Of a stretch of 64,000 nt of DNA, positions 21,612 to 62,246 are shown piece after piece; position 1 is the stretch's first letter, and every line of letters starts with the position of its first letter. The notes beneath the pieces were generated by a model, which had not been told where the DNA came from, ran no database searches, and saw only the letters and a program-made list of their open reading frames with translations. A program made the translations under genes and the position numbers. The DNA lies in the IMG/VR virus record IMGVR_UViG_3300045541_000131, positions 1 to 64,000 of that record; one strand, written 5' to 3'. This stretch comes from a virus.

Positions 21612-21613
21612 AG

Positions 21614-21642
21614 TTGACTTTACCGACAAAATCTTATACAAT
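21614..21642 (+). promoter_or_regulatory. Sigma70-type promoter, leaderless start at gene 44
   Basis: TTGACT (21614-21619), 17-base spacer, TACAAT (21637-21642). The ATG at 21649 lies 6 bases after the -10 box, where transcription should start, so the message would be leaderless. Confidence 0.7.
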
Positions 21643-21648
21643 CGCTAA

Positions 21649-22593: not shown

Positions 22594-22633
22594 ACTGTAG
22601 AACTGCAAGACCCTAGTCAAACAGTTTAGTTTT
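22590..22633. terminator. Inverted repeat between convergent genes
   Basis: CTAAACTGT (22590-22598) and ACAGTTTAG (22621-22629) can form a 9-bp stem with a 22-base loop, followed by TTTT. Both stop codons lie in the stem. It is a weak terminator candidate for convergent transcripts. Confidence 0.4.
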
Positions 22634-45009: not shown

Positions 45010-45018
45010 GGAGAAAAA

Positions 45019-46092
45019 ATGAAACTTAAGACTATTTTTAAAACTCTTGTTGCTGCTGCCGTGCTGGCCGCATCCACTGCTCATGCAGAATTTAGAATGA
45101 TTGTTCCGCAGGGCCCGGGTCAAGGAACTAGTGTTTGGGCAGGTATCATTGCCAAGCACTTGGAAAAGCAACTGGGAGAAAAGGTTGTTATTCAACATAT
45201 TCCAGGTGCCAAAGACATTCCAGGCTTTAACGAATTCCACAATAAACTACGCATGGATAACAATACCATTATGGTCAGCCATGGTGGTAATGGTGTTAGT
45301 TTCTTAGTTGACAAGGTAGACTATGACTACAGTCAATATGAAAGCATTGGTATGCAGAACCTAAACATTGTGTTAGGTCGTAAAGAATCAATGGATCCAA
45401 AAAACCCTGCCAGTGTAGCCAGACTAGCTGGTGGCAGTGGCTTAGAGCCTGATGGCATGGCAGTGGCTATGTTGATGTGCGGCAACTTGCCTAAGAAGGA
45501 AGACTATCTTGCCTGCTTTAAAAAGCGTGTAATTTGGGTCAACGGTATTCCAGGAGCCGAACGTAGACTAGGATTTATGCGCGGCGAATTGAATACTACT
45601 CGTGAAACTACTGTTGCTTGGTTTAAGTTCTATACCAGTGTAGCAGAAAACAAACTATGGTTCCATCATGGCATTTATGATCTTAAGACAGGACGAGTAG
45701 GAGACGATCCTAACTTTCCCAAGGGCTATAAGTTTGAAGATGTGTTCAAGAGTATCCATGGCGTTGCACCCAAGGGCGAATTCTTTGAAGCTTATCAACT
45801 AAGCAGAACATTCCGTGATGTACTACAAAAGGCCTTATGGGTCAACAAAGGCAATCCTAATACACAAAGACTTCGTGCTGCTGTTCAGCGTATGATTACT
45901 GATCCAGAAGCTGCTGCTGCTCTAGAAGCAGACACTGGTAAATATGAATGGATTACAGGCGACGAAGGCAATAGAGTTGTAGATCGTCTACGCAGAAATG
46001 TCACTGAAAAGAAACTACAAGATCTAGTATGGTGGCACGATAATGCTTATGGATTCAAGAGTGAATTCAAACCACAATTGGTAATAAAATAA
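45019..46092 (+). CDS. tctC: TctC-like periplasmic binding protein (Bug family)
   Basis: The 357 residues have a signal peptide (to AHA, residue 23), then FRMIVPQGPGQGTSVWAGII, a motif typical of TctC/Bug receptors, and GKDIPG-like PGAKDIPGFNEF. Such proteins bind carboxylates such as citrate or other small anions in the periplasm. A GGAGAAAAA ribosome site precedes it. It forms an operon with tctA. Confidence 0.85.
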   Translation: MKLKTIFKTLVAAAVLAASTAHAEFRMIVPQGPGQGTSVWAGIIAKHLEKQLGEKVVIQHIPGAKDIPGFNEFHNKLRMDNNTIMVSHGGNGVSFLVDKVDYDYSQYESIGMQNLNIVLGRKESMDPKNPASVARLAGGSGLEPDGMAVAMLMCGNLPKKEDYLACFKKRVIWVNGIPGAERRLGFMRGELNTTRETTVAWFKFYTSVAENKLWFHHGIYDLKTGRVGDDPNFPKGYKFEDVFKSIHGVAPKGEFFEAYQLSRTFRDVLQKALWVNKGNPNTQRLRAAVQRMITDPEAAAALEADTGKYEWITGDEGNRVVDRLRRNVTEKKLQDLVWWHDNAYGFKSEFKPQLVIK

Positions 46093-48496: not shown

Positions 48497-48699
48497 TGAA
48501 TGAATCTAATACTCGTAGTCTTGTAAAAACCGTAAGTTGGCGCTTGACTGGTTCGGGCGCCACTTTTTTGATTGCTTATCTTATATCAGGCAACTTAACT
48601 GTGGGCGGAACTATTGCTGTTATTCAGTTAGTGTCTAATACTATTTTATATTATATACACGAAAGAATTTGGAATCGTATTAATTGGGGTAAAAAATAA
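48496..48699 (+). CDS. DUF2061 membrane protein
   Basis: The 67 residues match DUF2061: RSLVKTVSWRLTGSGATFLI, then YYIHERIWNRI, with two membrane helices. Members often accompany APS kinase genes, as here. The stop codon TAA is also the first part of the late promoter for the RNA at 48708. The start overlaps the previous stop by one base. Confidence 0.82.
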   Translation: MNESNTRSLVKTVSWRLTGSGATFLIAYLISGNLTVGGTIAVIQLVSNTILYYIHERIWNRINWGKK

Positions 48700-48702
48700 A
48701 TA
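48697..48702 (+). promoter_or_regulatory. Late promoter of the 48708 RNA
   Basis: TAAATA. The predicted start (about five bases downstream) is at 48708, exactly at the 5' strand of the RNA's closing stem. Confidence 0.65.
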
Positions 48703-48707
48703 GTTTA

Positions 48708-48815
48708 ACACCTTAGGACCGTTACTCAGTTATCTGAGCCTAAGGCGTCCGGCGGCTGCTGCCGGTGTTGCCCGGATTCGCTACCCTGAGGCGCACGAAG
48801 TGAGCATTTATTTTT
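48708..48815 (+). ncRNA. Structured non-coding RNA, type unknown
   Basis: The 108 bases between DUF2061 and the nucleosidase contain no ORF and are GC-rich compared with the rest. Stems: CCTTAGG (48711-48717) with CCTAAGG (48739-48745), enclosing CTCAG (48725-48729)/CTGAG (48734-48738) with a TTAT loop and a 7-base bulge; CCGGC (48749-48753)/GCCGG (48761-48765); and alternative outer pairing of AACACC (48707-48712) with GGTGTT (48764-48769). A third small stem (CAC/GTG, 48794-48802) precedes a U-rich end. Transcription from the late promoter would begin at the first stem. It could be a leader of the nucleosidase gene or a free RNA. I recognise no Rfam family. Confidence 0.7.
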
Positions 48816-48819
48816 GACT

Positions 48820-49374
48820 ATGAAAACAATTATACTTGTAGCATTACCCGAAGAACTAGACAGCAGTCTAGTTGATGTGCCCGTTGTTTATACAGGAGTG
48901 GGCATCAGCAATGCTGCTATGATGACCTATGATGCTATAATAGAGCATAGTCCAGACTTAGTCATCAACTATGGTAGCGCAGGTAGTTTGAAAAACTACA
49001 AAGGATTATTGCCTGTTAATCGTGTTTGCCAGCGTGATGCAGATTGTAGCCCGTTACGTGATCGTGGCTACATGTTAGGTGAAAATGTGTTATACTATCA
49101 TAGCGGCGAAGATGGTGTTTATTGCGGCAGTGGCAATAACTTTGTTACAAAGCCCGATACTTGGACGCTAAATCATTGCGATATTGTCGATATGGAACTT
49201 TGGAGCATAGCTAAAGTTTGCGAATACCACAATGTTCGGTGGATCAGCCGCAAATGGATCAGCGATAATGCTGATAGCGAAGCGGGAAACACATGGGAAA
49301 CAGCACTAGCAGCAGGTCAGCAAGAATTCATCAAATGGTTTAAGTCAGGTAAATATACTAATATCTGCCCTTAA
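48820..49374 (+). CDS. MTAN/PNP-family nucleosidase-like protein
   Basis: The start ATG 48820 gives TIILVALPEELDSSL, then VVYTGVGISNAAMMTYDAII and LVINYGSAGSLKNYKG, as in the 5'-methylthioadenosine/nucleoside phosphorylase family. The catalytic VDMELWSIAKVCEYHNVRW block is also present, with the conserved glutamate (IVDMELW). The 184-residue length is shorter than usual (about 230). No Shine-Dalgarno is visible; AAGTGAG lies too far upstream, in the RNA structure, so translation may be regulated by folding. Confidence 0.78.
   Translation: MKTIILVALPEELDSSLVDVPVVYTGVGISNAAMMTYDAIIEHSPDLVINYGSAGSLKNYKGLLPVNRVCQRDADCSPLRDRGYMLGENVLYYHSGEDGVYCGSGNNFVTKPDTWTLNHCDIVDMELWSIAKVCEYHNVRWISRKWISDNADSEAGNTWETALAAGQQEFIKWFKSGKYTNICP
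49350..49355 (+). promoter_or_regulatory. Possible late promoter for the tagged-protein operon
   Basis: GGTAAATATAC lies in the end of the nucleosidase gene, with a predicted start about 17 bases before the ATG at 49378. The surrounding bases are coding. Confidence 0.4.
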
Positions 49375-49377
49375 ACT

Positions 49378-50658
49378 ATGAAAATCCAGCAATTAATCAC
49401 AGAAACAGTCGACGGTAAAAATCTCCATCTCGAGCATCTGGATGATGAGATTTGGAATCGTGGACATCAAGGTGCCGTTGAAGCACTACAATACTTAGAA
49501 GGTGCTGCTGGCTTATTGCTTGGATCTAGCGATCAAAAGTATTTTGCTACTAAAAAGTGGGATGGTAGCCCAGCATTGCTAGTAGGCACAGATCCCGAAA
49601 CTGGCGCTTTTGTTATGGGCGACAAAGGCATTTTTAGTGCAACAAAAGAAAACAGAATATACAAGGCCGGCGATGTAGATCGTGTAAAGCCTGACAAAGA
49701 AGTTAAAGGCCAGAAAGTAGATCGTAGTGATCTTAGAACTAAACTCAAAACAGCCTTTAACTACTTAAAAGACTTAAACTACGGCGACAAGATTTTACAA
49801 GGCGATTTGCTTTGGACACAAGGCGACGGTCAAAGCGGATTCCAAATGATCGACGGCGTTAACTATTGGACATTTACTCCTAACTTGTTAACTTATGCTG
49901 TTCCAGCCGACACACCTCTGGCACAGCGCATGAGCAAGGCTAAGGTGGGTATTGTGTTTCATACAACCTATGAAGGTGGTCCTACTCTTAAAAACATGTC
50001 GGCGAGATTTGGTGCTGACATCGGTGAAATAGGCAGCACACCTTATATCTATGTTCGTGATGCTACAATTAAAGATGTTAGCGGCAGCGTAACACTAACA
50101 CAACGCGAAAGCAACATGTTGGAAATGGCCGTTGCTGAATTATGGAACTACTTGTCGGCAATCGGTGAAGAAACATTTAAATGGTTAGAAAGTTCAGTGG
50201 CCGGGCATAGCCTACGAGACTTAATCAAGATAGACATTAACAAAATGGTTCGTGCTGGTGCCATGGATCAGCCAGAAGCGTATGTTCAGCAGTTCCTTAA
50301 GAGATTAGCTGAAAGATTGACTGCTGACATTGAAAAACTAAAGACACAAGCTGGTCAGGATCGCAAGCGTGCCGCACAAGAAGAAGCATTAAAATATATT
50401 CAGCAGCACACTGAAAGCATTGAAAATGTTTACTTGTTGTTCATTGGTATTCAGCGTGTTAAAGATGTTTTACAGAAACACTACGCAGCTATTCGTCAAA
50501 TAGATACATTTATTGCCAGACCAGATGGCAGCTTTGATGTTAAACCCGAAGAAGGTGTAGTCATTGTTGACCATTTAGGCAAAGGCGGCAAGGAAGCAGT
50601 TAAGATTGTAGACAGATTAGATTTCAGTCGCGAAAACTTTGAAAAGGCTCGAGGATGA
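49378..50658 (+). CDS. Tagged nucleotidyltransferase/ligase-like protein
   Basis: The tag is MKIQQLITETVD with a candidate cleavage after ITE. Then residues 58-66 hold KKWDGSPAL (K60, motif I-like lysine of ATP-dependent ligases). GDKGIF, LQGDLLWTQGD (141-150, motif III-like), EGVVIVD (392-398, motif IV-like) and VKIV (K409, motif V-like) follow in order. The region 280-390 is helical and separates the last motifs. This looks like an RNA/DNA ligase fold with a long insert. It is the first gene of the tagged set. Confidence 0.7.
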   Translation: MKIQQLITETVDGKNLHLEHLDDEIWNRGHQGAVEALQYLEGAAGLLLGSSDQKYFATKKWDGSPALLVGTDPETGAFVMGDKGIFSATKENRIYKAGDVDRVKPDKEVKGQKVDRSDLRTKLKTAFNYLKDLNYGDKILQGDLLWTQGDGQSGFQMIDGVNYWTFTPNLLTYAVPADTPLAQRMSKAKVGIVFHTTYEGGPTLKNMSARFGADIGEIGSTPYIYVRDATIKDVSGSVTLTQRESNMLEMAVAELWNYLSAIGEETFKWLESSVAGHSLRDLIKIDINKMVRAGAMDQPEAYVQQFLKRLAERLTADIEKLKTQAGQDRKRAAQEEALKYIQQHTESIENVYLLFIGIQRVKDVLQKHYAAIRQIDTFIARPDGSFDVKPEEGVVIVDHLGKGGKEAVKIVDRLDFSRENFEKARG

Positions 50659-51284
50659 GATTACTAGAATTAAAAGGCGGGCGTAGACTTATAGTCGTAT
50701 ACGGTGGCGGCTTTCAGCCTTTTCATGTGGGACACATGAGCAGTTACTTACAAGGCAAGGCAGCATTTCCTGATGCTGACTTTTATGTTGCTGCCAGTAA
50801 TGTAACCAGCGAGCGTCCAATACCTTTTACTGAAAAGAAATTTTTAGCACAACAAGCTGGTGTTAGTGATCCTGTTGTTCAAGTGGGCACTATGAGTTAT
50901 ACAAATGATGCTGGCCGTAAAGTAACCAGCACTCCATTGAATCCTTTAGAAGTTTTACAAAAATACGATCCAAACAAAGATGTCCTAGTTATTCTACGCA
51001 GCGAGCGTGATCCAATGAAGACCACAGCCACTAGTTATTATCAGCCATGGCAAGGTATGGAAGCAGCAGAACCATTCGGCGAGCATGCTTATATTTTTGT
51101 AACTAAGAAACATGACTTTACTCTCTGCGGCAAAGATGTATGTAGCGGCACACAAGTTCGTAACATGTATCAAGAAGCCAATGACAAAGAAAGATTAAAT
51201 TTAATCAAACAACTATATCCCAGTGCTACTAATGAAGTAAAAATAAAGAAAATATTAGACAGCAGATTAGGTTCAGCAACATGA
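50655..51284 (+). CDS. Tagged nucleotidylyltransferase (NMNAT-like)
   Basis: After MRLLELKGG (LLE motif), a Rossmann-like nucleotidylyltransferase begins: LIVVYGGGFQPFHVGHMSSY with H-x-G-H. SERPIPFTEKKF and GTQVRNMYQEAND, a variant of the ISSTxxR motif, follow. Family members transfer AMP or CMP to a phosphorylated substrate such as NMN. Size (209 aa) is typical. ATGA overlaps join it to both neighbours. Confidence 0.8.
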   Translation: MRLLELKGGRRLIVVYGGGFQPFHVGHMSSYLQGKAAFPDADFYVAASNVTSERPIPFTEKKFLAQQAGVSDPVVQVGTMSYTNDAGRKVTSTPLNPLEVLQKYDPNKDVLVILRSERDPMKTTATSYYQPWQGMEAAEPFGEHAYIFVTKKHDFTLCGKDVCSGTQVRNMYQEANDKERLNLIKQLYPSATNEVKIKKILDSRLGSAT

Positions 51285-52999
51285 AATACTTAGAAATATT
51301 CGAGCAAATGCTCAGTGAAATCAACATGAGCCCCAGCAGCCTAAGAACACTGGCCAGCCAGATTGATGCTCGTGCTGGCATGGAGTTCGAAATGTTAGTG
51401 CCAGGTGTTGGTGGTGCAGATGAAGAAGGCGACATGGAACCCGACTACGGTGCCGACGAGCGTATTCGTAGATTTGGTGATATTAGAGACTTTTTCTATG
51501 ATGGTAACTTCAATAGTCGTCGCGATGTAGAGAGTTTAATGGATGAAATCTGGAACGATTACGCGGACAGCGATTGGCTCAGCGAAAAGAAACAATCAGC
51601 ATGGGATGAAGTTGCCGAAGATCATATCCGTGATTTAGTAGAGCGTGACTATGGTGATGAATATTTAGAACAAGCTGAGGAAGAAGCCAAAGATCAAGCA
51701 CCGGAATTCGGCATGAACGCTGAAGAACTACAACAAGCTGTACAGGTTCGTTATAAAGAATTATTCCTAGACAAAGTCAACGAAATCCTCAGCGACATGG
51801 GCGACGACTACGACAAGGCCTTTGAAGAATGGCAAGACGAAGTTTGGCCTGAAATTTGGAACGACGATGACATGTTCACCGACTGGGCCGAGGAAGAAGG
51901 CATGAGAATGATGAGTGACATAACAAGAGGTTATGAAATCACATGGCCACATTGGGAATCGCCTGAAACCGAAGGTGAAATAGACATTGAACAAGTTGCT
52001 GATGAATTCGGCGATGCTATAGGCAGACCAGTTAATTGGAGCCGCAATTATCATGGCGGCAAGCGAGCAGCCAACACTTATGTGGTCGAACCCGACGGCA
52101 GTTTAGATGGCGATGATCCTGGTGATGCTGGCTTAGAATTTGTTAGCCCACCATTACCCATACAAGAACTATTAAGTGATTTGGTTAAAGTTAAAAAATG
52201 GGCCGAAAGAGCAGGTGCTTATACAAATTCCAGTACTGGCTTACATATCAATGTCAGCGTACCTGGTTGGCAAGGCAATTTACAAGACTTAGATTATGTT
52301 AAACTAGCTGTATTGTTAGGCGATGAATATATTCTAGCTCAGTTTGGTCGCAGCAGTAACACTTATACCAAGAGTGCTTTAGGCATAGTTAAAAAGCATA
52401 TTCAACAGAGACCGCAAGACGCCGAGGCTCTGCTCAAGCAAATGAAGGATCACTTAAATGCTGCTGCCAGTAAATTAATACACAGCGGCGTTACTGAAAA
52501 GTATACCAGTATCAATGTTAAGGGTGGCTATATAGAATTTCGTAGTCCTGGCGGCGACTGGTTAAATGAAGATTTGGCTACGATTGAAGCAACCTTATTA
52601 CGATTTGTAGTGGCCATGGATGCGGCAGTGGATCCCAACAAGTACAAAGAAGAATACGCAAAGAAGCTTTATAAGTTATTAGCCCCTAGCAATGACACAA
52701 CAGATACGCTACAATACTTTGCTAGATTCAGTGCTGGCACACTACCTCGCAGTGCGTTGACTAGTTTTGTTAAACAAGCACAACTACAGCGTACAATGAA
52801 GAAAACAGGTCCTCAAGCGGGCAAGCGTTATTGGTGGGATGTATCTAAGCCGGACTCAGCAGCTGGCATTAGAGTAGTAGCTGCCACGAAAGAAGAAGCC
52901 ATTGCCAAGGCACAGGGAGAATACCCAGAATGGCGATATGCTAGAAACATTGTAGCTACGCCTTCGGAAGAATACAAAGAACAGGGAGCAGGCTCATGA
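51281..52999 (+). CDS. Tagged amidoligase-like protein
   Basis: The start MKYLEIFEQMLSEIN includes IFE and LSE. AGMEFEMLVPG begins an amidoligase (COOH-NH2 ligase superfamily) core; VEPDGSLDGDDPGDAGLEFV, STGLHINVSVPGW and INVKGGYIEFRSPGGDW follow. Residues 45-225 are a long acidic insert rich in Asp, Glu and Trp. A short C-terminal module (residues 500-572, with RYWWDVSK) is attached. Members of the family make amide or peptide bonds. Catalytic residues appear present. Confidence 0.72.
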   Translation: MKYLEIFEQMLSEINMSPSSLRTLASQIDARAGMEFEMLVPGVGGADEEGDMEPDYGADERIRRFGDIRDFFYDGNFNSRRDVESLMDEIWNDYADSDWLSEKKQSAWDEVAEDHIRDLVERDYGDEYLEQAEEEAKDQAPEFGMNAEELQQAVQVRYKELFLDKVNEILSDMGDDYDKAFEEWQDEVWPEIWNDDDMFTDWAEEEGMRMMSDITRGYEITWPHWESPETEGEIDIEQVADEFGDAIGRPVNWSRNYHGGKRAANTYVVEPDGSLDGDDPGDAGLEFVSPPLPIQELLSDLVKVKKWAERAGAYTNSSTGLHINVSVPGWQGNLQDLDYVKLAVLLGDEYILAQFGRSSNTYTKSALGIVKKHIQQRPQDAEALLKQMKDHLNAAASKLIHSGVTEKYTSINVKGGYIEFRSPGGDWLNEDLATIEATLLRFVVAMDAAVDPNKYKEEYAKKLYKLLAPSNDTTDTLQYFARFSAGTLPRSALTSFVKQAQLQRTMKKTGPQAGKRYWWDVSKPDSAAGIRVVAATKEEAIAKAQGEYPEWRYARNIVATPSEEYKEQGAGS

Positions 53000-54342
53000 G
53001 ATTAAGCGATTTACAAGAAAGTCAAACTGTCGTCGAAGACGCAAATCCTGTACAAAAGGCAGCAGTACATTTCTTTAACAGTAAAGTTGGCGATGTAGAC
53101 AAAGAAGCCGTTGATAACTATGTAGACGCTGCTAACAGTCTTTATAAAAAAGCACAGCAACAGGGTTTTGGCGATCAAGTAAAGCAAGCATTAGTTAAAG
53201 CCAAGAAAAGTCCTTATTTACAAGGTGGTGTTGTTACTACCATTGGTGCTGTACTTACTGGCGGATTATTAGCATCAGCACAGAGATTTGGCTTAACTCC
53301 TGGTCAAACAAATATGTTATTACAAGCAGTATTGAATACAGTTATTCCTACTGTAGTTAGTCGCATTAATGGTCGCAGTTGGGATGAAACTATTAAGTAT
53401 ACATTGGCCAGTGCCGCTACTGGCATAGGTGCCGCAGCAGCCATGGGCGAATCAGACTACAGTCCAATGACCAAAGACGCAATGAAAGCAGACAAGATCC
53501 GCAGTCTAGAGAATCTTATTGCCAAGTACAAAGAACAAGGTCGCCAATTAAAAGTTCAAGAACTTGAATTAGAACTAAAGAAACTACAAGGTGTGGCAGA
53601 AGGCCCATTGAATGAATCCGATAAATTTACTAGTTGGTATGATTGGAAAGATCAGGCTATAAGTAGTGGGTATACTATTACAAAAAAAGATGATAAAATT
53701 GTAGCATTGAACAAACAAGGCCAAATAGTCGGTCATTGGTCTGATGTTGGTAGGTTTCTAAGTGGTAAGGCACCGCGCCCAAATTTCAATGCCGCAATGC
53801 GGGCAAAAAAAAATCTAGATAATGAGCAAGGTGTGGCGGAAGAAATCAATCCCGAAGTTAAACAACCTGGGTTTAAGCATCGAATCGTAATAGGCGATTA
53901 CATCTATAGTGCCAAAGGCTCTCCCAGTGGCCTAAGGATAGAATGCCACGATAGTGAAGGTACACTTTTAGGCTACGCTCAGTTTATGTTTTACCGAGAC
54001 CACCTTGAAAGTCAGTATACTAAAGTTCGTAGTCAATACCAAGGCCAAGGTATAGCCAGCAATATGTATGCTTACGCACACATGCTAGGCAATGATATTC
54101 AGCCAAGTCCTTATTTAGAGCCTGACGGTAAAAAAATGTGGCGAGCATTCAAAAAATCCGGGGCGGCAAAAATTATGGCCGGTGATACAGTTAAGGAAGC
54201 CAAAATGAGTGCTGCTGTTAGATTTCAGCGTGCCATGGATCGCGAGCGTGCCAAAACTGATGCCCATTATCGAGCAGGCAAAGAAGTAATGGCTCGTGCT
54301 CGTGCCGAACAAGACAAGAAAAAAGAACAAGAGAAAAAATGA
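52996..54342 (+). CDS. Tagged modular protein with GNAT-like end
   Basis: The tag MRLSDLQESQ holds LQE. Residues 70-150 have two hydrophobic helices (GGVVTTIGAVLTGGLLASA and AATGIGAAAAMGE). Two QGVAE motifs, at 198-202 and 278-282, border an 80-residue module. After the second a GNAT-like acetyltransferase domain begins (residues 290-395, with TKVRSQYQGQGIASNMYAYA, the acetyl-CoA loop). The end is a charged helix. If QGVAE are processing sites, this is a polyprotein of at least three parts. Confidence 0.68.
   Translation: MRLSDLQESQTVVEDANPVQKAAVHFFNSKVGDVDKEAVDNYVDAANSLYKKAQQQGFGDQVKQALVKAKKSPYLQGGVVTTIGAVLTGGLLASAQRFGLTPGQTNMLLQAVLNTVIPTVVSRINGRSWDETIKYTLASAATGIGAAAAMGESDYSPMTKDAMKADKIRSLENLIAKYKEQGRQLKVQELELELKKLQGVAEGPLNESDKFTSWYDWKDQAISSGYTITKKDDKIVALNKQGQIVGHWSDVGRFLSGKAPRPNFNAAMRAKKNLDNEQGVAEEINPEVKQPGFKHRIVIGDYIYSAKGSPSGLRIECHDSEGTLLGYAQFMFYRDHLESQYTKVRSQYQGQGIASNMYAYAHMLGNDIQPSPYLEPDGKKMWRAFKKSGAAKIMAGDTVKEAKMSAAVRFQRAMDRERAKTDAHYRAGKEVMARARAEQDKKKEQEKK
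53587..53842 (+). repeat. Pair of near-identical QGVAE-coding repeats
   Basis: CAAGGTGTGGCAGAAG (53587-53602) and CAAGGTGTGGCGGAAG (53827-53842) differ at one base and flank an 80-residue module. Another such repeat is at 58447-58462 (CAGGGTGTGGCGGAAG), and degenerate forms occur at 58935 and 61506. Confidence 0.8.
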
Positions 54343-54527
54343 AAACAATACACTGGTTCTATTTTGTATCAGCTCTTTGCGTAACATTTTTCGCAGGCTT
54401 AGTCTTAGGCATGATTGCCATGCGAGATTTTATGGCCGAAGAATTTATTGTTATAGATCCTGAAAAACTTCAGCACTATCGTCAGATTCATGAACCTGTA
54501 AAAAAATCTCAAGGAATGACAGCATGA
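54339..54527 (+). CDS. Small single-pass membrane protein
   Basis: The 62 residues have one membrane helix (residues 5-27, WFYFVSALCVTFFAGLVLGM) and a short polar end. It is coupled to both neighbours by ATGA overlaps. Unlike its neighbours it has no tag. It could anchor a partner in the host membrane, but no proof exists. Confidence 0.62.
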   Translation: MKTIHWFYFVSALCVTFFAGLVLGMIAMRDFMAEEFIVIDPEKLQHYRQIHEPVKKSQGMTA

Positions 54528-55771
54528 GATTACTTGAATTAAAGCAAGGTCTGGGACTAACTATCTTCGACATCGACGATACGCTGTTTCACACCACCGC
54601 CGAAATTAAAGTAATTAAGAACGGGCAAATTGTTCGCAGTCTAAATAATCAAGAATTCAACAACTACGAATTACAACCCGGCGAGTCATTTGACTTTGGT
54701 GAATTCCGCAGTGCCGAAAAGTTTAATCGTGAAAGTAAACCTATTAGACCAATGATTGCCAAATTAAAAGCCATGCTAAAGAACGCCGGAGACAGCACAG
54801 TTATCATGCTGACTGCTCGTGCCGACTTTGACGATAAAGAAAAGTTTTTAAGCACATTTGAAAAGTATGGCATTGATATGAGTCGTGTTCATGTACATCG
54901 TGCTGGCAACTTGCCTGGAGATGATATACCTGCTGAAAAGAAAGCCGTATGGGTTCGTCGCTACTTAGACACTGGCAAGTATGGTCGTGTAAGATTATAT
55001 GATGACAGCAGAACAAACTTAAAGGTATTTAAAGCATTGGCGGCAGAATACCCCAATGTTGAGTTCGAAGCCTACTATGTTGATCCTAATGGTCAAGCCA
55101 TAGTTCATGAACAAGAAGTATTTGAAGATTACAGCACTATAGTTCAAACACTTAGAAAAGCTGGCTATCAAGAACTTGGATCAGGTGCTGATGCTACTGT
55201 ATGGACCAAAGATGCAGGAACTGTAATTAAAATTATTGTACCCGAAGACGAAGAATCTGAGTCGGATCAAGCAGTTGCTACATTTAAAAAGTTCTACGAG
55301 TTCTGTATGGCACACCAGGACATAGAATGTTTGCCTAAGTTTATTAAAATACAAGGTAGCCATTACGCAGAGTTTGAAATAAAAGGTCGAACATTTTTAC
55401 AAATTGCCATGGAACAATTATATCCCATAAAGAAGAATAGCTTCGAACAAGGTATAGTTTATGTATTCAGCGATTATGCTACTAAACGAATACCATGGCA
55501 ACGAGTTAAACAAGAACTCACTCTGCCAAAAACATGGCATGATACTGAATTCTTTGAAAGAAAAGCTAATGAATTCGCATTGAAAATATCCCAGTTGAAT
55601 GAATTAGATGAAGCAAAATTATCAGTGCTATACAATGTAATGGTATTGTTATATCACACTGGTAGAATAAACAAGATGGGTTGGGATTTACACACAGAAA
55701 ATGCCATGCTAAGACGAGATGGCACTATAGTTATTATTGATCCGTGGTTCAATATAGAGGATGGTGTATGA
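54524..55771 (+). CDS. Tagged HAD phosphatase fused to a kinase-like domain
   Basis: After MRLLELKQG, a HAD-type phosphatase has DIDDTLF (D16, D18), MLTARADF and LYDDSRTN. From residue 205 a protein-kinase-like domain follows: LGSGADATVW (glycine-rich loop, 218-227), VIKIIV with K236, then WDLHTENAM (D388, N393) and IIDPW (D406). This is the order of a kinase ATP site, catalytic loop and metal loop. Neither domain shows loss of a key residue. The predicted chemistry (phosphate removal plus transfer) on one tagged chain is unusual. Confidence 0.75.
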   Translation: MRLLELKQGLGLTIFDIDDTLFHTTAEIKVIKNGQIVRSLNNQEFNNYELQPGESFDFGEFRSAEKFNRESKPIRPMIAKLKAMLKNAGDSTVIMLTARADFDDKEKFLSTFEKYGIDMSRVHVHRAGNLPGDDIPAEKKAVWVRRYLDTGKYGRVRLYDDSRTNLKVFKALAAEYPNVEFEAYYVDPNGQAIVHEQEVFEDYSTIVQTLRKAGYQELGSGADATVWTKDAGTVIKIIVPEDEESESDQAVATFKKFYEFCMAHQDIECLPKFIKIQGSHYAEFEIKGRTFLQIAMEQLYPIKKNSFEQGIVYVFSDYATKRIPWQRVKQELTLPKTWHDTEFFERKANEFALKISQLNELDEAKLSVLYNVMVLLYHTGRINKMGWDLHTENAMLRRDGTIVIIDPWFNIEDGV

Positions 55772-56082
55772 ACATTGATGATTTAATGGGAAAGAGTCGT
55801 CCTAAAAAAGTCCAGCGTGAATATACTGACATGGAAAGAGCCATCATGGAAGGCGGCGGGGAAATATTATCAGACGATGTTTATTACCTACAAAAGGAAT
55901 TAGAACAACAGTTTGAAAACTTTGCCGACGGAAAGAAACCTGGACGCAAAGGACTAGCAAAACGCATGGGTGTAGATTGTAGCAAAAGCGAAACTGCACT
56001 ACGCAAGATTGCTAAAAATTCATCAGGCGAGCGTCAGCGTATGGCACATTGGTGTGCTAACATGAAGGGTGGCCGCAAGTGA
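55768..56082 (+). CDS. Small protein with conserved C-terminal module
   Basis: The start at 55768 forms an ATGA overlap. It begins MNIDDLMGKSR (no clear cleavage motif). The C-terminal 45 residues, with KPGRKGLAKRMGVDC and IAKNSSGERQRMAHWCANMK, form a module I recall from T4-like phages. Basic residues and two cysteines suggest metal or nucleic-acid binding. Function unknown. Confidence 0.62.
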   Translation: MNIDDLMGKSRPKKVQREYTDMERAIMEGGGEILSDDVYYLQKELEQQFENFADGKKPGRKGLAKRMGVDCSKSETALRKIAKNSSGERQRMAHWCANMKGGRK

Positions 56083-56639
56083 AAGTTGCAGACATTATCA
56101 CCGAAGCCAAAGTCAGTGTCCGTGATCAAATCATTGCGGCTGTTAAAAAAGATGGCGGCAAGTTAAATGACTATTTTGTTAGATTTACAGATGTTGACCA
56201 GTTGGGATATTCAGCACGACAAAAGTTTGGTCGTACACCCGATGTCGGCGCTCCTGATTTTGATGTTGATTACATAGGAACAAACAAAGGTAGTCCAGCA
56301 CTTTGGTTTTACCCTTTAAAATATTATCTCAGTCAAAAAGAATCCTATGCTACTGATAAACCTTATGTATGGGTAGTCAAATTAAAACCTACAGCATGGC
56401 TACAGCCCGTTAGCAGTTCAACTAAAGAAAAACAGCCTGCACCTGCAGGACTTGAGCGAGTGGGATTTTTACGCAAATCTACTGTGCCTGCTGCTATATT
56501 TTTTAAACCTGGCTATGAACTTGTGGCTAAAATCTATGACTATGGCGGGCAGCATCAAAGACATGGTGAAGTCAAGGGTGCTCCTAAAAAACCTGGTTTA
56601 CTGTCAAAGGTATTAGGTATGTTTGGTAAAGGTAAATAA
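56079..56639 (+). CDS. Tagged protein, possible ART-like fold
   Basis: The start is GTG (MKVADIITEAKV, ITE). The 186 residues include DYIGTNKGSPALWFYPLKYY and YVWVVKLKPTAW, a strand-turn pattern vaguely like ADP-ribosyltransferase cores (STS/YFT blocks), then ERVGFLRKSTVPAAIFFKPG. T4 Alt is a packaged ADP-ribosyltransferase, so this parallel is attractive, but the catalytic residues cannot be identified with certainty. ATGA overlap with the previous gene. Confidence 0.58.
   Translation: MKVADIITEAKVSVRDQIIAAVKKDGGKLNDYFVRFTDVDQLGYSARQKFGRTPDVGAPDFDVDYIGTNKGSPALWFYPLKYYLSQKESYATDKPYVWVVKLKPTAWLQPVSSSTKEKQPAPAGLERVGFLRKSTVPAAIFFKPGYELVAKIYDYGGQHQRHGEVKGAPKKPGLLSKVLGMFGKGK
56633..56638 (+). promoter_or_regulatory. 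Late promoter inside the tagged operon
   Basis: TAAATA, seven bases, then ATG at 56646. The predicted start is 1-2 bases upstream of the start codon. Confidence 0.5.
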
Positions 56640-56645
56640 TATATT

Positions 56646-57983
56646 ATGCGATTACTAGAAATTAAATCACTATTAGAAGCTACAACACTTACCGCCAAGG
56701 AAATGTCCAAATACCCTTTCCGCCAAGAAGTGTTTTTACAAAAAGTTAAAAATCAAAGTCCTTTTGAACTAGATGACGGAACCAGCGGTGTAGTTGATAA
56801 AAAAGAACTACCTAGACTAAAGCAATTATTTGCAGCTGGTAACTTTGCTGCTGTTGGCAAAATCAAGCTAGCAGATGGCAGAATGGTTGCCATGGGCAAG
56901 TTTAAAAAGACTGGTGAGTTTGGCGGCAAGACTGGTGGCGAAGAAGGTAAAGTAAGTAATCGCGGTGAAGTTGCTGAAGGCATTATGGGTGCAGGTTTAT
57001 TTGCTAAACTAGCTGCTCGTGCCGGCGGAAAAATTAATGCTATTGGCCCAGATGATATTTGGCGTGTTATTGACCAACTAAAAAGCTCCGGTGCCGACGA
57101 ATACTCGATGAAGATTCGTGATGCTGGTAAGGTAGTCGTCAATGACAGCATTGTGTTTACATTAAGGCTAAAAGAAGGTCCTTATAAGGATTTGCTAAAT
57201 CCAGCCAAGCGTAGTTTATTAACTGACTTAGTGGGTAGCGTAGTTGAGTTTTCTAACAGTAAGGATGCTGAAGAATACAGTAAGTATTTCTACTTAAATG
57301 GCAAGCCTGATATTATCAATGTTATTGCCGACGGGGTTACTGAAGAGAAAAGCAGTAAAGTTGACGTTAAGGTCGTAGTAACTGATCCTAAGACTGGTCA
57401 ACAAAGCGAGCGTGTATTGAATCTAAGCCTAAAAGCTGGAGCCGATCAGTTCGGTCAAGTTGGCGGTGGCAAGGCCGCTGTTGCCGGCAGTCAGTTTGAA
57501 AGCCAAAAAACACTATGGAGTCGTTTTGGTATAGATGTAGAAAGTCTACGTGCTGACTTTGAGCGTTTACTCAAGGATAAAGGCCTATTGGAGGCCATTG
57601 CCATGATGTATACTAACGCTGACAGCATGTTTAGAGAACTATTAAGCGGTGACTACGACGAAGAAGAATATTTGTATCTAAAGGACTTTGTCAAAGCCAT
57701 TAATTATTTTGCTACATTAAACATGCCTAATATCTTATTAGTCAGCATGGAAGGCGGCACTTATGATGTGTTGAACTTTGACTTGCTAGAAGGCAAGCTA
57801 AAAGACATCAATCTCAGCAGTAGATTTAGCGAAACAACCAAGAATCCTCAAGTTGAAATTTACGACGAAGCTACAGGACAATGGCTGCTTAGAGTTCGTG
57901 CTAAAGTAGAGGGCGGTAGTTATTTGCGTAACTACATCGAAAAAGGCCCGCTAATGTCTAAGCTAATTAGCGTCAAACGCTAA
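56646..57983 (+). CDS. Tagged protein, possible PD-(D/E)XK nuclease
   Basis: The tag MRLLEIKSLLEAT ends in LLE. Residues 75-145 include a glutamate-rich helix (NRGEVAEGIMGAGLFAKLAA). SSKVDVKVVVTDPKTG and LNLSLKAGADQFGQVG form a D ... S-x-K pattern resembling PD-(D/E)XK nuclease cores. The C-terminal half (residues 290-445) is helical. The nuclease idea needs structural support. It has its own late promoter. Confidence 0.6.
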   Translation: MRLLEIKSLLEATTLTAKEMSKYPFRQEVFLQKVKNQSPFELDDGTSGVVDKKELPRLKQLFAAGNFAAVGKIKLADGRMVAMGKFKKTGEFGGKTGGEEGKVSNRGEVAEGIMGAGLFAKLAARAGGKINAIGPDDIWRVIDQLKSSGADEYSMKIRDAGKVVVNDSIVFTLRLKEGPYKDLLNPAKRSLLTDLVGSVVEFSNSKDAEEYSKYFYLNGKPDIINVIADGVTEEKSSKVDVKVVVTDPKTGQQSERVLNLSLKAGADQFGQVGGGKAAVAGSQFESQKTLWSRFGIDVESLRADFERLLKDKGLLEAIAMMYTNADSMFRELLSGDYDEEEYLYLKDFVKAINYFATLNMPNILLVSMEGGTYDVLNFDLLEGKLKDINLSSRFSETTKNPQVEIYDEATGQWLLRVRAKVEGGSYLRNYIEKGPLMSKLISVKR

Positions 57984-58014
57984 TTTCAATTTAAAATAAT
58001 CGAACAAAATTGAC

Positions 58015-58020
58015 TAAATA
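58015..58020 (+). promoter_or_regulatory. Late promoter giving a leaderless mRNA (gene at 58026)
   Basis: TAAATA, five bases (ATACT), then ATG. Confidence 0.6.
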
Positions 58021-58025
58021 ATACT

Positions 58026-58313
58026 ATGAAAATAGTAGAACTTATCGCGGAAGATGCAGGCGGCATGGGAGCAGGCAGCGTTGCTGCTGTAGCTATGCCT
58101 TTTATGCGTCCTCATCGCAAACGCAAAACACGCACAATGCGTCGGGAAAGCGGCAACGAAATCCTACGCAGAATGCCTTATAATAATATTGCCGAAGAAT
58201 TAATGGCTTCACTGGAAGAAAAGTGGAGCGAAAAATACAAGCGTAGTATTAACTGCGATAACCCTAAAGGTTTTAGTCAAAAAGCACATTGCCAAGGAAG
58301 AAAAAATGGATAA
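58026..58313 (+). CDS. Tagged small basic protein with CNNPKG-like module
   Basis: The tag MKIVELIAEDAG holds IAE. An Ala/Gly-rich segment and a basic stretch (RPHRKRKTRTMRR) follow. The C-terminus has RSINCDNPKGFSQKAHCQGR, a short two-cysteine module that I recall from many aquatic T4-like phage proteins. After tag removal the product would be very basic, suiting DNA binding in the capsid. It overlaps the next gene by 8 bases. Confidence 0.65.
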   Translation: MKIVELIAEDAGGMGAGSVAAVAMPFMRPHRKRKTRTMRRESGNEILRRMPYNNIAEELMASLEEKWSEKYKRSINCDNPKGFSQKAHCQGRKNG

Positions 58314-59385
58314 AGCAAAAGCCCGTAAAATGTATGAACTTGCTGATCGTTTAAGCAAAGTTGATACAAGTAGCCTAAATGAACAGCAACTAGCAGAGCG
58401 TAGTGCTATGATTCAACGCCTTGGCGAAGAACTAAAAGCTATGAAGCAGGGTGTGGCGGAAGCCAGAGGTTTTACTGATCAAGACCTTGAATATTATGAT
58501 AGAGTGGCACGAGAAGCAATTGAGCTAAGTCGACAGTGGCAGAAGAAACCATTGGATACTATGATAGGCGGTAAGGCTATGATAAGGATTACTCAACTTT
58601 TAGGTCCAAGAGGTCTATTGCCAGAATTTTTTAAGGTAGACATTACAGCGGTCGCTGGCGATACTAACCATTATAAAGATCAGTATGCGAAGGCTATATC
58701 TGGTTACAATCCAGCCTATAAACCAACACAACTTATGCAACGGGTAAAGGAGCTCAATGAGCTGTTCGTTATAAGTAAGGATCCCAACGAAGTTGCAAAA
58801 CTAGACGCACAAAGATTGTCAATGGAAATATTTACGTTTGCTGGAATTATTCAAGATTTTGTGATACGACAACTTAACCAGATGGACATGCATAACCGTA
58901 ATAAATCGCTCCGATTCGGTCCAAACACCCAGCGCGAAGGTATGGCAGAAGACGAAGAAGACTTGCACACAAGTTTTAATGTTGTTAAACTTGGTGGTGC
59001 TTTAAATGCTGATCCTCGAACACTTCGTGCTGCTATTGCAAGACACATGCAGGGCAACCCCACAAGAACAGATATAATGGTATTAGCTAATGCGTTCATG
59101 GGAATGTTAAAGAACAGCGACGATCAAGAAATACAAAGAATTGCTAACTTAATCAAGTCTGGCAATCCTCGCGAAGTTCCGCAGGAAAGCACTGCTGCTA
59201 TAGCCGAACGCAATGCTTTCGTTGATGCAATGCGTCAAGTTAAAAAAGGTGAAAAGTTTACAGTAGGTGGCAAGGAGTTTACAAAGACTACAAGCCACGG
59301 TGAAGATGAAGTTAAAGAAGCCGTTGACACAGAAGCCTACGACAGACTCAAGAAGGCATTTGATTTCAGCGATTACAAAGGTTAA
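58306..59385 (+). CDS. Modular protein with QGVAE and EGMAE linkers
   Basis: The 359 residues start without the tag (MDKAKARKMYELADRL). QGVAE at 48-52 and EGMAE at about residues 211-215 divide it in three. The middle module (residues 53-210) is helical. The last module holds GGALNADPRTLRAAIARHMQ, RTDIMVLANAFMGML and NAFVDAMRQVKKGEKFTVGG. I do not know the function of any part. The similarity of the linkers to those in the gene at 52996 suggests shared processing or module exchange. Confidence 0.62.
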   Translation: MDKAKARKMYELADRLSKVDTSSLNEQQLAERSAMIQRLGEELKAMKQGVAEARGFTDQDLEYYDRVAREAIELSRQWQKKPLDTMIGGKAMIRITQLLGPRGLLPEFFKVDITAVAGDTNHYKDQYAKAISGYNPAYKPTQLMQRVKELNELFVISKDPNEVAKLDAQRLSMEIFTFAGIIQDFVIRQLNQMDMHNRNKSLRFGPNTQREGMAEDEEDLHTSFNVVKLGGALNADPRTLRAAIARHMQGNPTRTDIMVLANAFMGMLKNSDDQEIQRIANLIKSGNPREVPQESTAAIAERNAFVDAMRQVKKGEKFTVGGKEFTKTTSHGEDEVKEAVDTEAYDRLKKAFDFSDYKG

Positions 59386-59388
59386 ATT

Positions 59389-60783
59389 ATGAAACTATTT
59401 GAATTATTCGAAAGCCCAATGATGACTGGGGCCAGCAATCTAAAAGTTATTGCCGACGCAGTCAGAAGCAGTACCAGTGCTGAAATCAGCTTGGGCGGTG
59501 AACCAGTAACACTAGAGCCACAAGAAGCAAACTATGTTTATAGTTTGTACAAGAGCGCATTAGAGAATGGTCGTCAAGAACAGTTTATGCAAATGCTCAG
59601 TGATCCACAAAGTTTTGATCGCATCATGGGCGGCATGCGTACTCGCATGGATACCATTCAACAAAAGATGTCAGGTACACACCCTAGCATGACAGGTGCT
59701 GCGGCAACTCGTATCGGTCAGCCTGGCGTGCAAGAAGATGCTCCTTTGGCAACTCCAGATCAACCTGCTGAAAACACACATACATTAAAGTATATTGTCA
59801 AGCGTTTTCCTAAAGAAGTTAAAGAGTTTTTCGGTACAGGCGAACTAGATGAGCATTTATACGATGCGTTATTTGATTACTACAACATGCATGGCGAAAT
59901 GCCATATGGCGTTGCTAAGGCTCGCACAGCCGATCCGATTCAGTGGATTGGTGACAGATTCGAAAAAGACGCACAACCATATCTTCACTTACATGAAAGT
60001 CTAACCGAAGCTAAGAAGGCAGTTTCTGAGCGTTGGGATGATGACGATGATGATTGGTGGGGTCTAAAAGACAAAAAGACTAGTAAGACCAGCGCAGGCG
60101 GTACAGTTACACAAACCGGCACCGGTGTTGTTCACAAAGGCAAATATGGCAGTGAATACCAAGGTGATGATGGCGACGACGATGACTACGATGAGTGGGG
60201 CAAGAAAAAACCCGAAGCTAAGGCCAAGGCTGCTGCTAAAAAGGCAGCTGATAAAGCAGCTGAAACAAAACGCAGTCGTGGACGCCCAAGTGCTGCTATC
60301 AAATCAGCCGACGGCAGTGAAACAATCAGTGACTACAGTACATGGTATCGTAAGAGCAAGCGCAGCCACCCTGAGCGTAAGATTGCTGGCAGTGCTAACA
60401 AAGCTGTGGCAGTTATTCCTAAGGGTAAGAAGTTTGCTGTAGTTGGTTCATGGGATGGCAGCAAAGGTAGTATTATGGCTAAAGCAGGAGAACTAATGAC
60501 TGCCGACCAATTAAGTAGCTTTAAGAGTGCCAAAGGTCGTCCTAAGAAAGTTCGTGAGTTCATCGAAAATCTACGCTATGTCGTAGAAGCTAAAAATGAC
60601 ATGGGCGAAACAGAATACACTACTTACAGCGGTTGGAAGGCTGCTTGTAAAAAGGCCGGGGCCGACAAGTTTGACGGTGACCGCGATATTTGCCAAGCTA
60701 TGAAAGATGGCAAGGGCGTAGGCGAGTGGGACGGTGCTGTGGGCACAGTTTATGATGACGCACATAAGAAAGCAGCAAAATGA
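59389..60783 (+). CDS. Tagged large low-complexity protein
   Basis: MKLFELFESPM (LFE twice) is the tag. Residues 130-200 form a helical module (YIVKRFPKEVKEFFGTGELDE). Residues 215-285 are Asp/Lys/Ala-rich low complexity (WDDDDDDWWG, then a basic AKAKAAAKKAADKAA stretch and RGRPSAAIKS). The C-terminal parts contain YSTWYRKSKRSHPERKIAG and YTTYSGWKAACKKAGADKFD. The mix of acidic and basic segments recalls histone-like or capsid-internal proteins. Function unknown. Confidence 0.65.
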   Translation: MKLFELFESPMMTGASNLKVIADAVRSSTSAEISLGGEPVTLEPQEANYVYSLYKSALENGRQEQFMQMLSDPQSFDRIMGGMRTRMDTIQQKMSGTHPSMTGAAATRIGQPGVQEDAPLATPDQPAENTHTLKYIVKRFPKEVKEFFGTGELDEHLYDALFDYYNMHGEMPYGVAKARTADPIQWIGDRFEKDAQPYLHLHESLTEAKKAVSERWDDDDDDWWGLKDKKTSKTSAGGTVTQTGTGVVHKGKYGSEYQGDDGDDDDYDEWGKKKPEAKAKAAAKKAADKAAETKRSRGRPSAAIKSADGSETISDYSTWYRKSKRSHPERKIAGSANKAVAVIPKGKKFAVVGSWDGSKGSIMAKAGELMTADQLSSFKSAKGRPKKVREFIENLRYVVEAKNDMGETEYTTYSGWKAACKKAGADKFDGDRDICQAMKDGKGVGEWDGAVGTVYDDAHKKAAK

Positions 60784-61748
60784 GACTAAATGACATCAGC
60801 GAAGGCGTAGCAGGTCCTAAGAATTGTTGGCCTGGTTATCGTAAAGTAGGCACTAAGCCAGGTACAGGCAAGAACGCCGGTAAGCGTGTCAACGACTGCG
60901 AAAAGATCAAAGAGAGCGTTGATATAGAAGACACATATAAAGGTTGGAAGTTTGAAGTTGAATTTCAAAAAGAAGATGACCGTAATGTAACATTTTATAG
61001 TGCTGTTAGTCCTGAAGGCAAAACTCATATGTTGCCCAAGCGAGCAACCAAAGAACAGTTTAGACAGTTTGTTGACAGCAAAACTGTCAAAGAAGGCCAA
61101 GTAACTAAAACTAAAACTGGCATTATTCATCGAGCCACAGACAAGTATGGAGCAGGAGAAACCGGTTTTGGTGACTACGGCTTAGAAAAAACTGCCATGG
61201 ACTTAACAGCCTTAAACAAGGATCTAACTAGTCGACTAGACAAAAGCATGGGTGTTAAGCACGACCATGGTAATAAAAAGAAAACAAAAGAAGGCTTAGG
61301 TGATGAAATCAATCCTGCTGATCGTGGCGAATATGATCGCGAAGGTGACATGGCCATTAATCAACTAAAGACTATCGAAGACGCTGCCACAGAATTACGC
61401 AGTATCTTAGACGCAGAAGATAACTTGCCTGAGTGGGTTCAAGCAAAAATTACTAAGGCTGTAGACTATATTGATACTGCTCGCGATTATATGAAGTCTA
61501 AAGAGCAGGGTGTAACTGAAAGAGTTAGAGATCCCGAAGATTGGGACGAAGGCACTGATAAAATACCTAATAATATTGAAGTTAGTATCAATGGTCGTTC
61601 ATGGAAAGTTTTTGCTGGACGCGGCTTGCCCGACAGTCGAGAAGAACGCAATCATTTAACTAAAATGAAACAGTGGGCAGCAAGCAAGAGTGCTGCTACT
61701 GGTAAGCAATGGGAAGTGCGTCTAACTGGTGCACCAGTTAGTCGTTAA
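60780..61748 (+). CDS. Tagged modular protein
   Basis: The start is MRLNDISEGVAG (ISE). A module with CWPGYRKVGTKPGTGKNAGK and RVNDCEKIKE follows. Residues 60-100 are a small beta module; 105-170 carry KTKTGIIHRATDKYGAGETG. Residues 185-240 form a helical module (REGDMAINQLKTIEDAATEL and LPEWVQAKITKAVDYIDTA). After EQGVTE a last 75-residue beta module follows. Each module looks familiar from T4-like phages, but in changing order. No enzyme motif found. Confidence 0.65.
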   Translation: MRLNDISEGVAGPKNCWPGYRKVGTKPGTGKNAGKRVNDCEKIKESVDIEDTYKGWKFEVEFQKEDDRNVTFYSAVSPEGKTHMLPKRATKEQFRQFVDSKTVKEGQVTKTKTGIIHRATDKYGAGETGFGDYGLEKTAMDLTALNKDLTSRLDKSMGVKHDHGNKKKTKEGLGDEINPADRGEYDREGDMAINQLKTIEDAATELRSILDAEDNLPEWVQAKITKAVDYIDTARDYMKSKEQGVTERVRDPEDWDEGTDKIPNNIEVSINGRSWKVFAGRGLPDSREERNHLTKMKQWAASKSAATGKQWEVRLTGAPVSR

Positions 61749-61760
61749 AGCGAGCCAGCA

Positions 61761-62246
61761 ATGAGATTATACGAACTACTAGAAAGCCTAGACAAAAACC
61801 AAAAGCGTGTGGGTCAAGTTGCCGGTGAAGAACCAGCTCGTAAGATTGGGCCAGTATTAGGTAAGGCTCCTAAACAGCATCCTTATAAAGGTCGCCTAGT
61901 AGGTGAAGAAGTCGAAGACATTGACGAAGCTAGTTTAGCTACAATGAGATCGTATTTTGACGGCGACGAAGACGCAGAAGATCCTAGCAAGTCAACTATG
62001 ATGCGTAAGTATTATGCTGCCCTGGACCAAAAGCTCAAAGATAAAAATAAAAAGAAGCCCGAAGATATTAACAAGCTAGACAAAAGCAATTATGTAGTAA
62101 TCAACAAACGAGTTAGCGAAGTTGCACCTCCTGGCATGGAAGATTGGATCAAAGATCGTAAAGCAGATTTCAAAAAGCGTTATGGTGATCGTTGGGAAGA
62201 AGTACTCTATGCAACTGCATGGAAACGCAAGAACGCTGGAAAATAA
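61761..62246 (+). CDS. Tagged small protein with conserved C-terminal module
   Basis: The tag is MRLYELLESLD (LLE). The middle is acidic. The C-terminal 45 residues, with APPGMEDWIKDRKADFKKRY and WEEVLYATAWKRKN, form a basic helical module I recall from capsid-region proteins of aquatic T4-like phages. It is the last tagged gene; a terminator follows. Confidence 0.65.
   Translation: MRLYELLESLDKNQKRVGQVAGEEPARKIGPVLGKAPKQHPYKGRLVGEEVEDIDEASLATMRSYFDGDEDAEDPSKSTMMRKYYAALDQKLKDKNKKKPEDINKLDKSNYVVINKRVSEVAPPGMEDWIKDRKADFKKRYGDRWEEVLYATAWKRKNAGK

Follow-up and report, generated by a model that had tools for sequence, protein, structure and literature searches.

This analysis concerns an operon of an aquatic T4-like (Kyanoviridae-like) phage, spanning 48814-62246 with its leading gene. 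It lies in the window, which is the whole 64,000-base stretch studied (positions 1-64,000 of IMGVR_UViG_3300045541_000131, a record of 138,652 bases). Most of its proteins begin with a short tag that appears to behave like the capsid-targeting sequence (CTS) of phage T4, and internal modules are joined by an 18-bp in-frame repeat, CAAGGTGTGGCGGAAGGC (Q-G-V-A-E-G), referred to here as the cassette, which an earlier note on this DNA had missed. It is likely, in our judgement, that this is a late operon of CTS-tagged head cargo, cut by a gp21-type protease and injected, with cassette-joined polyproteins among its products. We also lean, with distinctly less assurance, towards the view that the cassette works both as a prohead-protease cut site and as a recombination patch at which modules are traded. 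The packaged polyproteins would probably be cleaved at every junction, with modules exchanged at the repeat, and the virus would probably inject a swappable toolkit together with its DNA.

The N-terminal tag and its likeness to a capsid-targeting sequence

The 14 open reading frames (ORFs) of 49378-62246 have the positions and strand given in the earlier note, and the 12 N-termini quoted there were correct. The claim that 12 of the 14 proteins share a similar short tag was borne out, as was the statement that all but MNIDDLM contain (L/I)-x-E; on the translations this motif stands at the end of every other tag. Expressed as a rule (M[KR] plus [LI]xE in residues 2-15), the tag was found in 11 of the 14 cluster proteins compared to 1 of the 170 other ORFs of the record (Fisher p=3e-14), and the search for further tagged genes that the note had proposed yielded that single ORF. 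When the control was limited to ATG-start ORFs of at least 80 amino acids the figure elsewhere was 1 of 117 (p=1e-12). Similar results were obtained with the nearest relative found (G001: IMGVR_UViG_3300036770_003943, 231,776 bases; coordinates are on the reverse complement of the contig, oriented like the window), where the rule fitted 11 of 17 proteins in the orthologous cluster and 5 of 232 elsewhere (p=1e-11). The operon is composed as follows, a slash marking the putative cut.

48696-48702, + strand: ATAAATA, a T4-type late-promoter-like site heading the operon, missed in the earlier note
48814-49374, + strand: nucleoside phosphorylase-like protein, untagged, operon gene 1 (PF01048, E=3e-13)
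49378-50658, + strand: DUF6267 protein, tag MKIQQLITE/T (PF19782, E=4e-76)
50655-51284, + strand: cytidylyltransferase/NMNAT-like protein, tag MRLLE/LK (PF01467)
51281-52999, + strand: amidoligase-like protein, tag MKYLEIFE then MLSE (PF12224, Amidoligase_2, E=5e-7)
52996-54342, + strand: three-module protein, tag MRLSDLQE, GNAT-like C-terminal module, two QGVAE junctions
54339-54527, + strand: untagged 62-residue protein, probably membrane (one likely span)
54524-55771, + strand: HAD phosphatase and kinase fusion, tag MRLLE/LK (phrog_415, phrog_15752)
55768-56082, + strand: MNIDDLM protein with FADGKxP module (a module that stands after GVAE in relatives)
56079-56639, + strand: protein with tag MKVADIITE/A, GTG start
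56646-57983, + strand: protein with tag MRLLEIKSLLE/A (phrog_3560, E=7e-30)
58026-58313, + strand: small basic protein, tag MKIVELIAE/D
58306-59385, + strand: untagged modular protein, N-terminus MDKAKARKMYELAD, its middle unlike the G001 ortholog from the KQG-VAE boundary on
59389-60783, + strand: protein with tag MKLFELFE/S
60780-61748, + strand: modular protein, tag MRLNDISE/G, one QGVTE junction (61509-61520)
61761-62246, + strand: final operon gene, tag MRLYELLE/S

The proteins behind the tags are, as had been claimed, unrelated; they fall into different families (DUF6267, CTP_transf_like, Amidoligase_2, GNAT-like, HAD phosphatase with kinase, and unknowns). Family models recovered the predicted nucleotidylyltransferase, amidoligase and HAD-kinase fusion (PF01467, PF12224, phrog_415/phrog_15752), and G001 adds an HD phosphohydrolase, a NUDIX protein and an ADP-ribosyltransferase. 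The predicted GNAT-like module can be seen in gene 52996 with a score under the Pfam cut-off; weak in the window, GNAT is found in relatives, as is a ParB-like domain (GNAT with ParB_N in relative L138). The ligase-like (or nucleotidyltransferase) call for the DUF6267 protein is founded on a KxDG motif, which is present; fold hits were weak, and the call stays motif-based because no significant match to the PDB was found by profile or by fold. The possible nuclease was not confirmed among the cargo. In G001 the DUF6267 gene (L008:8864-9060) has a broken 5' frame that leaves tag and domain in different frames, through assembly error or decay.

The tag is widely kept. It was present in 71 of 79 IMG/VR orthologs of the DUF6267 protein (for example MYSFKQYLNEA and MKKFRQYITES), compared to 9% of equal-length internal windows, and in the orthologs of Melnitz, HTVC008M, DLP6 and C48C1 the [LI]xE falls in one alignment column just before the domain. 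In distant phages the position of the Glu was retained while the remainder of the tag had diverged. AlphaFold2 models the tag of the window's protein as disordered: residues 1-17 have a predicted local distance difference test (pLDDT) score below 50 and the domain begins after them.

In the T4 CTS, residues 4 and 7 serve targeting, residues 8 and 10 serve processing, and the cut follows L/I-x-E (PMC9026906). A weight matrix trained only on the tags of environmental (marine) DUF6267 orthologs was applied blind to 245 T4 ORFs; it ranked ipII and ipIII 1-2, gp22 9, Alt 10 and ipI 15. The tags of the window form a shorter subtype, in which MKIQQLITE, MKVADIITE and MKIVELIAE are spaced as in T4 but with one residue fewer.

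The virion proteins of another phage offered an independent comparison. Table 3 of PMC10665884 lists 52 proteins from virions of Synechococcus phage S-CREM2. When the window's rule was applied unchanged, 7 of the 10 tagged proteins compared to 45 of 209 others appear in this published mass spectrometry (MS) list (p=0.002); a strict T4-like matrix separated them less well (p=0.013). Among the tagged virion proteins, the tag reads MKDFDSFLEE in an S-adenosylmethionine (SAM) hydrolase, MKRFDAFLTE in an APH/ChoK-like kinase, MKNFSSFLTE in a cytidylyltransferase and MKDLHSFLTE in a small protein. Virion proteins that fall outside the strict rule include one that is Cas9-like, with RFASFMAEA, and one with MQTFSMFFSE. 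The former, S-CREM2 gp12 (L147:7704-10313, - strand), is a Cas9-annotated virion protein with its FMAEA site about 25 residues in, which suggests an RNA-guided nuclease as packaged cargo. Furthermore, cytidylyltransferase/NMNAT-like proteins, the class of window gene 50655, have been found repeatedly in cyanophage virions (PMC10665884, PMC9602691, PMC9146016, PMC3037559), with detection by MS in S-SM1, S-SCSM1 and S-SZBM1.

The context of the operon points the same way. Of the ATAAATA sites, 15 of 19 in this genome and 34 of 49 in G001 lie upstream of a gene, no more than 130 bp away. Most of the scrambled 7-mer controls gave about 7-16% (about 7-11% for four of them in this genome), and TAAATAA, a control with a stop codon in it, gave 37-40% (40% in this genome). 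The motif precedes portal, sheath and tube genes, and one copy precedes the G001 cargo operon. The operon is thus predicted to be expressed late with the head genes, a placement that would fit packaging, and enzymes made late would mainly benefit the next infection. The gp21-type protease that the earlier note had proposed to look for is encoded by G001 (Peptidase_S77, E=2.5e-24), together with gp22 and gp23 (PF07068, E=1e-97). In G001 and four other contigs of the clade the putative gp23 propeptide ends in L-x-E, followed by A(T/S)AGAT or a similar sequence, the counterpart of FLSE/AAP in Melnitz. In addition, the G001 cargo operon contains a gene with the tag MRLLELK (15547-16857, L008) that encodes NUDIX and ADP-ribosyltransferase domains, the second half matching the PHROG of Alt-like RNA polymerase ADP-ribosyltransferases (E=3e-5). 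T4 itself packages and injects Alt, the classical example of such an enzyme. The claim that the tag is a CTS cut by a gp21-type protease is therefore supported in silico by the T4 matrix ranks, the DUF6267 orthologs and the over-representation in S-CREM2 virions, and also by gp21 and the gp23 site of G001, the tagged Alt-like gene and the late promoter.

The QGVAEG cassette as a putative cut site and swapping patch

Three copies of CAAGGTGTGGCGGAAGGC are present in the window and 12 in G001; in these two genomes all are in frame and every copy but one lies inside the cargo cluster. The copies in the window, with one degenerate junction, are as follows.

53587-53604, + strand: QGVAEG copy CAAGGTGTGGCAGAAGGC, in frame, gene 52996
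53827-53844, + strand: QGVAEE copy CAAGGTGTGGCGGAAGAA, in frame, gene 52996
58447-58464, + strand: QGVAEA copy CAGGGTGTGGCGGAAGCC, in frame, at the left edge of the exchanged middle of gene 58306
58939-58950, + strand: GMAE, a degenerate junction near the right edge of that middle, gene 58306

Gene 60780 holds a weaker form of the motif. The arrangement is more elaborate in G001, where seven GVAEG motifs separate small modules in the 685-residue protein of 17734-19791 and three related motifs occur in that of 19664-22891. Searching IMG/VR with a codon-degenerate KQGVAEG pattern returned at least 120 stretches; the motif was within an ORF in at least 118 viral stretches, with up to six per ORF among the matches listed. 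Among these listed matches the codon choice was strongly skewed relative to background (GTG 90% vs 23%, GCG 92% vs 11%, GGT 96% vs 46%), and pairwise codon identity was 0.78-0.96 in the cassette compared to 0.57-0.71 for gp23 residues that are invariant in related contigs. Among 170 exact copies, the QGVAEG frame is the only open one in 160; 7 have a second open frame as well and 3 have none.

The amino acids of the cassette are not equally free to vary. In 366 in-frame copies, chosen by DNA similarity alone and blind to frame, P3 was V, M, L or I in 365 and P1 was Glu in 360; the other positions were looser (Q in 285, G in 322, A in 333, and G at P1' in 288). The constraint on the cassette appears to be the hydrophobic-x-Glu rule. 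Furthermore, the same modules were found at the N-terminus behind a CTS in one phage and internally behind GVAE in another, and the two Glu residues align: MRATEFITE/SWSEKYKSSINC and GVAE/EWSQKYKNSINC. Further pairs are MRIKEIILE/SFDQPY and GVAE/AFDQPY, MRADEIINE/DWQKVN and GVAE/DWQKVN, and MRACEFIIE/GTLNVDVPNEEW and GVAE/GKLSVDVPNEEW; in MRAQEFVAE/AFDRPY the N-terminal tag itself ends in VAE. This exact register was seen in 12 of 35 cases compared to 2.0 expected, although these are not all independent because some belong to one module family. An N-terminal tag was also present in 39 of 85 GVAE proteins and in 105 of 835 other ORFs. The cassette is probably a protease site, as read from its sequence.

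The cassette also coincides with module borders. In 31% of cases a homology block between proteins has one of its borders no more than 8 residues from the motif, compared to 6.5% at random positions, and module families adjoin many different neighbours; it is the boundary statistics, not the family counts, that carry the argument, because the clustering merged some multi-module segments. Between gene 58306 and its G001 ortholog, residues 1-49 and 221-359 are common and the middle is unrelated from the cassette on. Genes 56079 and 54524, separate in the window, are fused in one G001 polyprotein in which the second tag is gone: the former corresponds to its N-terminal module (56% identity over full length) and the HAD domain of the latter to an internal module (a block 78% identical, residues 8-205). 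Such patterns suggest that the cassette probably serves as a swapping patch too.

An origin of the cassette in cellular genomes was considered and rejected: an exact 20-mer search of 257 gigabases of prokaryote genomes gave only 2 matches, one without a long reading frame and the other in a deaminase-like gene (L152:4049-4068, KQGVAEGNKVFG), probably by chance. Long disordered linkers flanking the cassette were likewise rejected, hydrophobic content falling only within about 5 residues. A tblastn search with the G001 685-residue protein and the product of window gene 52996 found no phage isolates with polyproteins; for one module protein the only match was a distant phage. Away from the main cluster, G001 carries a second small tagged group at 208793-210864 (MKIKEIIKEG, MRLYELVD) with one degenerate GMAE.

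Competing explanations and known systems

The sequence shows the tag, its likeness to the T4 CTS, the cut-site-like constraint, the module boundaries at the cassette and the interchange of CTS and GVAE; packaging, cutting and injection in this phage, as well as recombination at the cassette, are inferred from it. In the explanation preferred here, cargo proteins would be made late and would enter the prohead core via an N-terminal CTS ending in hydrophobic-x-Glu; a gp21-type prohead protease would cut after the tag Glu, and the mature enzymes would remain in the head, be injected with the DNA and act at once in the next host. Small modules would be joined by the Q-G-V-A-E/G cassette; because this cassette would act as a variant of the tag's cut site, one tag could bring in several modules, all freed by the same protease. 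The cassette would also be a patch at which phages swap modules, since its DNA is nearly identical between copies.

Several observations weigh against this explanation. Genes 58306, 54339 and 55768 are without the motif, the marine-tag matrix gives only moderate scores to the short tags of the window's clade, the P3 Val of the cassette departs from the textbook L/I, and the boundary figure of 31% puts most homology ends elsewhere. No match to gp21 was found in the window's own contig by Pfam family or by the Melnitz protein, which we attribute to the contig being probably an incomplete fragment; gp23, gp20 and terminase were also not recognised in its ORF list. Finally, the S-CREM2 authors themselves say that late proteins could contaminate caesium chloride (CsCl) preparations, and the S-SCSM1 authors likewise warn of co-purification.

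If the tag were a true CTS and the cassette only a DNA recombination patch or a neutral linker, polyproteins would be packaged and injected uncut. This would be consistent with silent sites conserved far beyond what codon use predicts and with modules that break at the cassette, and yet a pure DNA patch predicts neither the P3/P1 pattern nor the strict frame; substitutions in the DNA-selected copies avoid exactly the P3 hydrophobic residue and the P1 Glu, and at one and the same module start GVAE stands where another phage has the CTS cut site. We therefore think this unlikely. Alternatively, the N-terminal motif may be another kind of leader (a membrane-binding amphipathic helix, a degron or a translation-start signal) on proteins that act in the producing cell only. 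Such roles are possible for short amphipathic N-termini in general, and packaging in this phage is a prediction from sequence; however, the conservation of (L/I)-x-E at the domain border, the blind match to ipII and ipIII, the tagged proteins detected in S-CREM2 virions and the late-promoter placement make it quite improbable. Least credible of all is a recent duplication of 5' ends, the likeness of the tags being descent without function. Several tags are indeed near-identical (MRLLELK twice, MRLLEIK), but in distant orthologs the Glu stays in place although the other tag residues differ, and the proteins behind the tags are unrelated.

Parts of the proposed system of cleavable tags and injected enzymes resemble what is already known, namely the CTS cargo of T4, cyanophage virion enzymes and polyvalent proteins, and the large tagged operon extends the T4 kind. 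T4 IPI, IPII, IPIII and Alt (PMC9026906) likewise have an N-terminal tag of about 8-20 residues with hydrophobic spacing and (L/I)-x-E before unrelated cargo, and G001 has an Alt-like enzyme. Unlike T4, with about 4, at least 11-12 tagged proteins stand in one late operon here, the tag is one residue shorter in the window's clade, and modules are chained by repeated internal cut-site-like motifs. The T4-like cyanophages S-CREM2, S-SCSM1, S-SZBM1 and S-SM1, also Kyanoviridae, carry cytidylyltransferase/NMNAT-like proteins and kinases in their virions, those of S-CREM2 with FLTE-type tags; the available parts of these reports describe them without a link to a CTS or protease and without a polyprotein design.

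Polyvalent proteins (Iyer et al. 2017, PMC5512222) are similarly multi-domain (2-15) and meant for injection, share GNAT, and are compared with polyproteins in that paper. Their trait of several unrelated effector-like domains per polypeptide is seen in G001 17734-19791 and 19664-22891, in the GNAT and ParB_N protein of L138 and in window gene 52996. Release there is ascribed to embedded peptidases, whereas here the repeated prohead-protease-like junction comes from a DNA cassette; no peptidase family scored above the Pfam cut-off in the scanned cargo proteins. The ejection proteins of the giant phages SPN3US and phiKZ (PMC10052503, available in part) are also large injected head sets, some trimmed after Glu (A-x-E) by the prohead protease, but mostly with long propeptides and, in that part, with no short shared tag or repeated inter-module site reported.

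T4-type phages are known to swap modules at short conserved DNA motifs, such as promoter stem-loop cassettes and glycine-rich tail-fibre adhesin motifs. Unlike those homology patches, the motif here is within cargo coding regions and doubles as a putative protease site. A literature search on GVAEG found no relevant phage paper, and one on CTS with cyanophage gave a T4 review only. The earlier note's view that so large a cargo set was undescribed holds in that no paper was found linking these enzymes to a CTS, but not in that several such enzymes are known from cyanophage virions. Should the cutting be confirmed, polyproteins joined by the cassette would represent a new design.

The tag gives a sequence rule by which head-carried proteins may be predicted in T4-like environmental phages, where so far there has been only virion proteomics of a few isolates, and it links many "hypothetical" proteins, e.g. 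DUF6267, to head packaging. If the cassette design is confirmed, a DNA phage would have a cargo system based on polyproteins and a natural recombination route to diversify injected effectors, and the design might serve as a tool to load several proteins into phage heads by one tag.

Other genes of the record

Elsewhere in the window, 43570-46092 encodes a TctA-type tricarboxylate transporter (E=3e-90) and, after it, a secreted TctC/Bug-like protein without a Pfam match, auxiliary metabolic genes that are unusual in phage. An iron-sulfur cluster assembly-like run occupies 16572-20194 (a SufC-like ABC ATPase, a SufS-like class V aminotransferase and an IscA-like protein), and, as in Methylophilales phage Melnitz, 1451-11550 holds genes for FecR/curli-type secretion together with a CHASE2 adenylate/guanylate cyclase. 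Beyond the window, at 94235-117970 of the record, is a long radical-SAM-like array (CxxxCxxC N-termini) with SGNH-like and other proteins interleaved.

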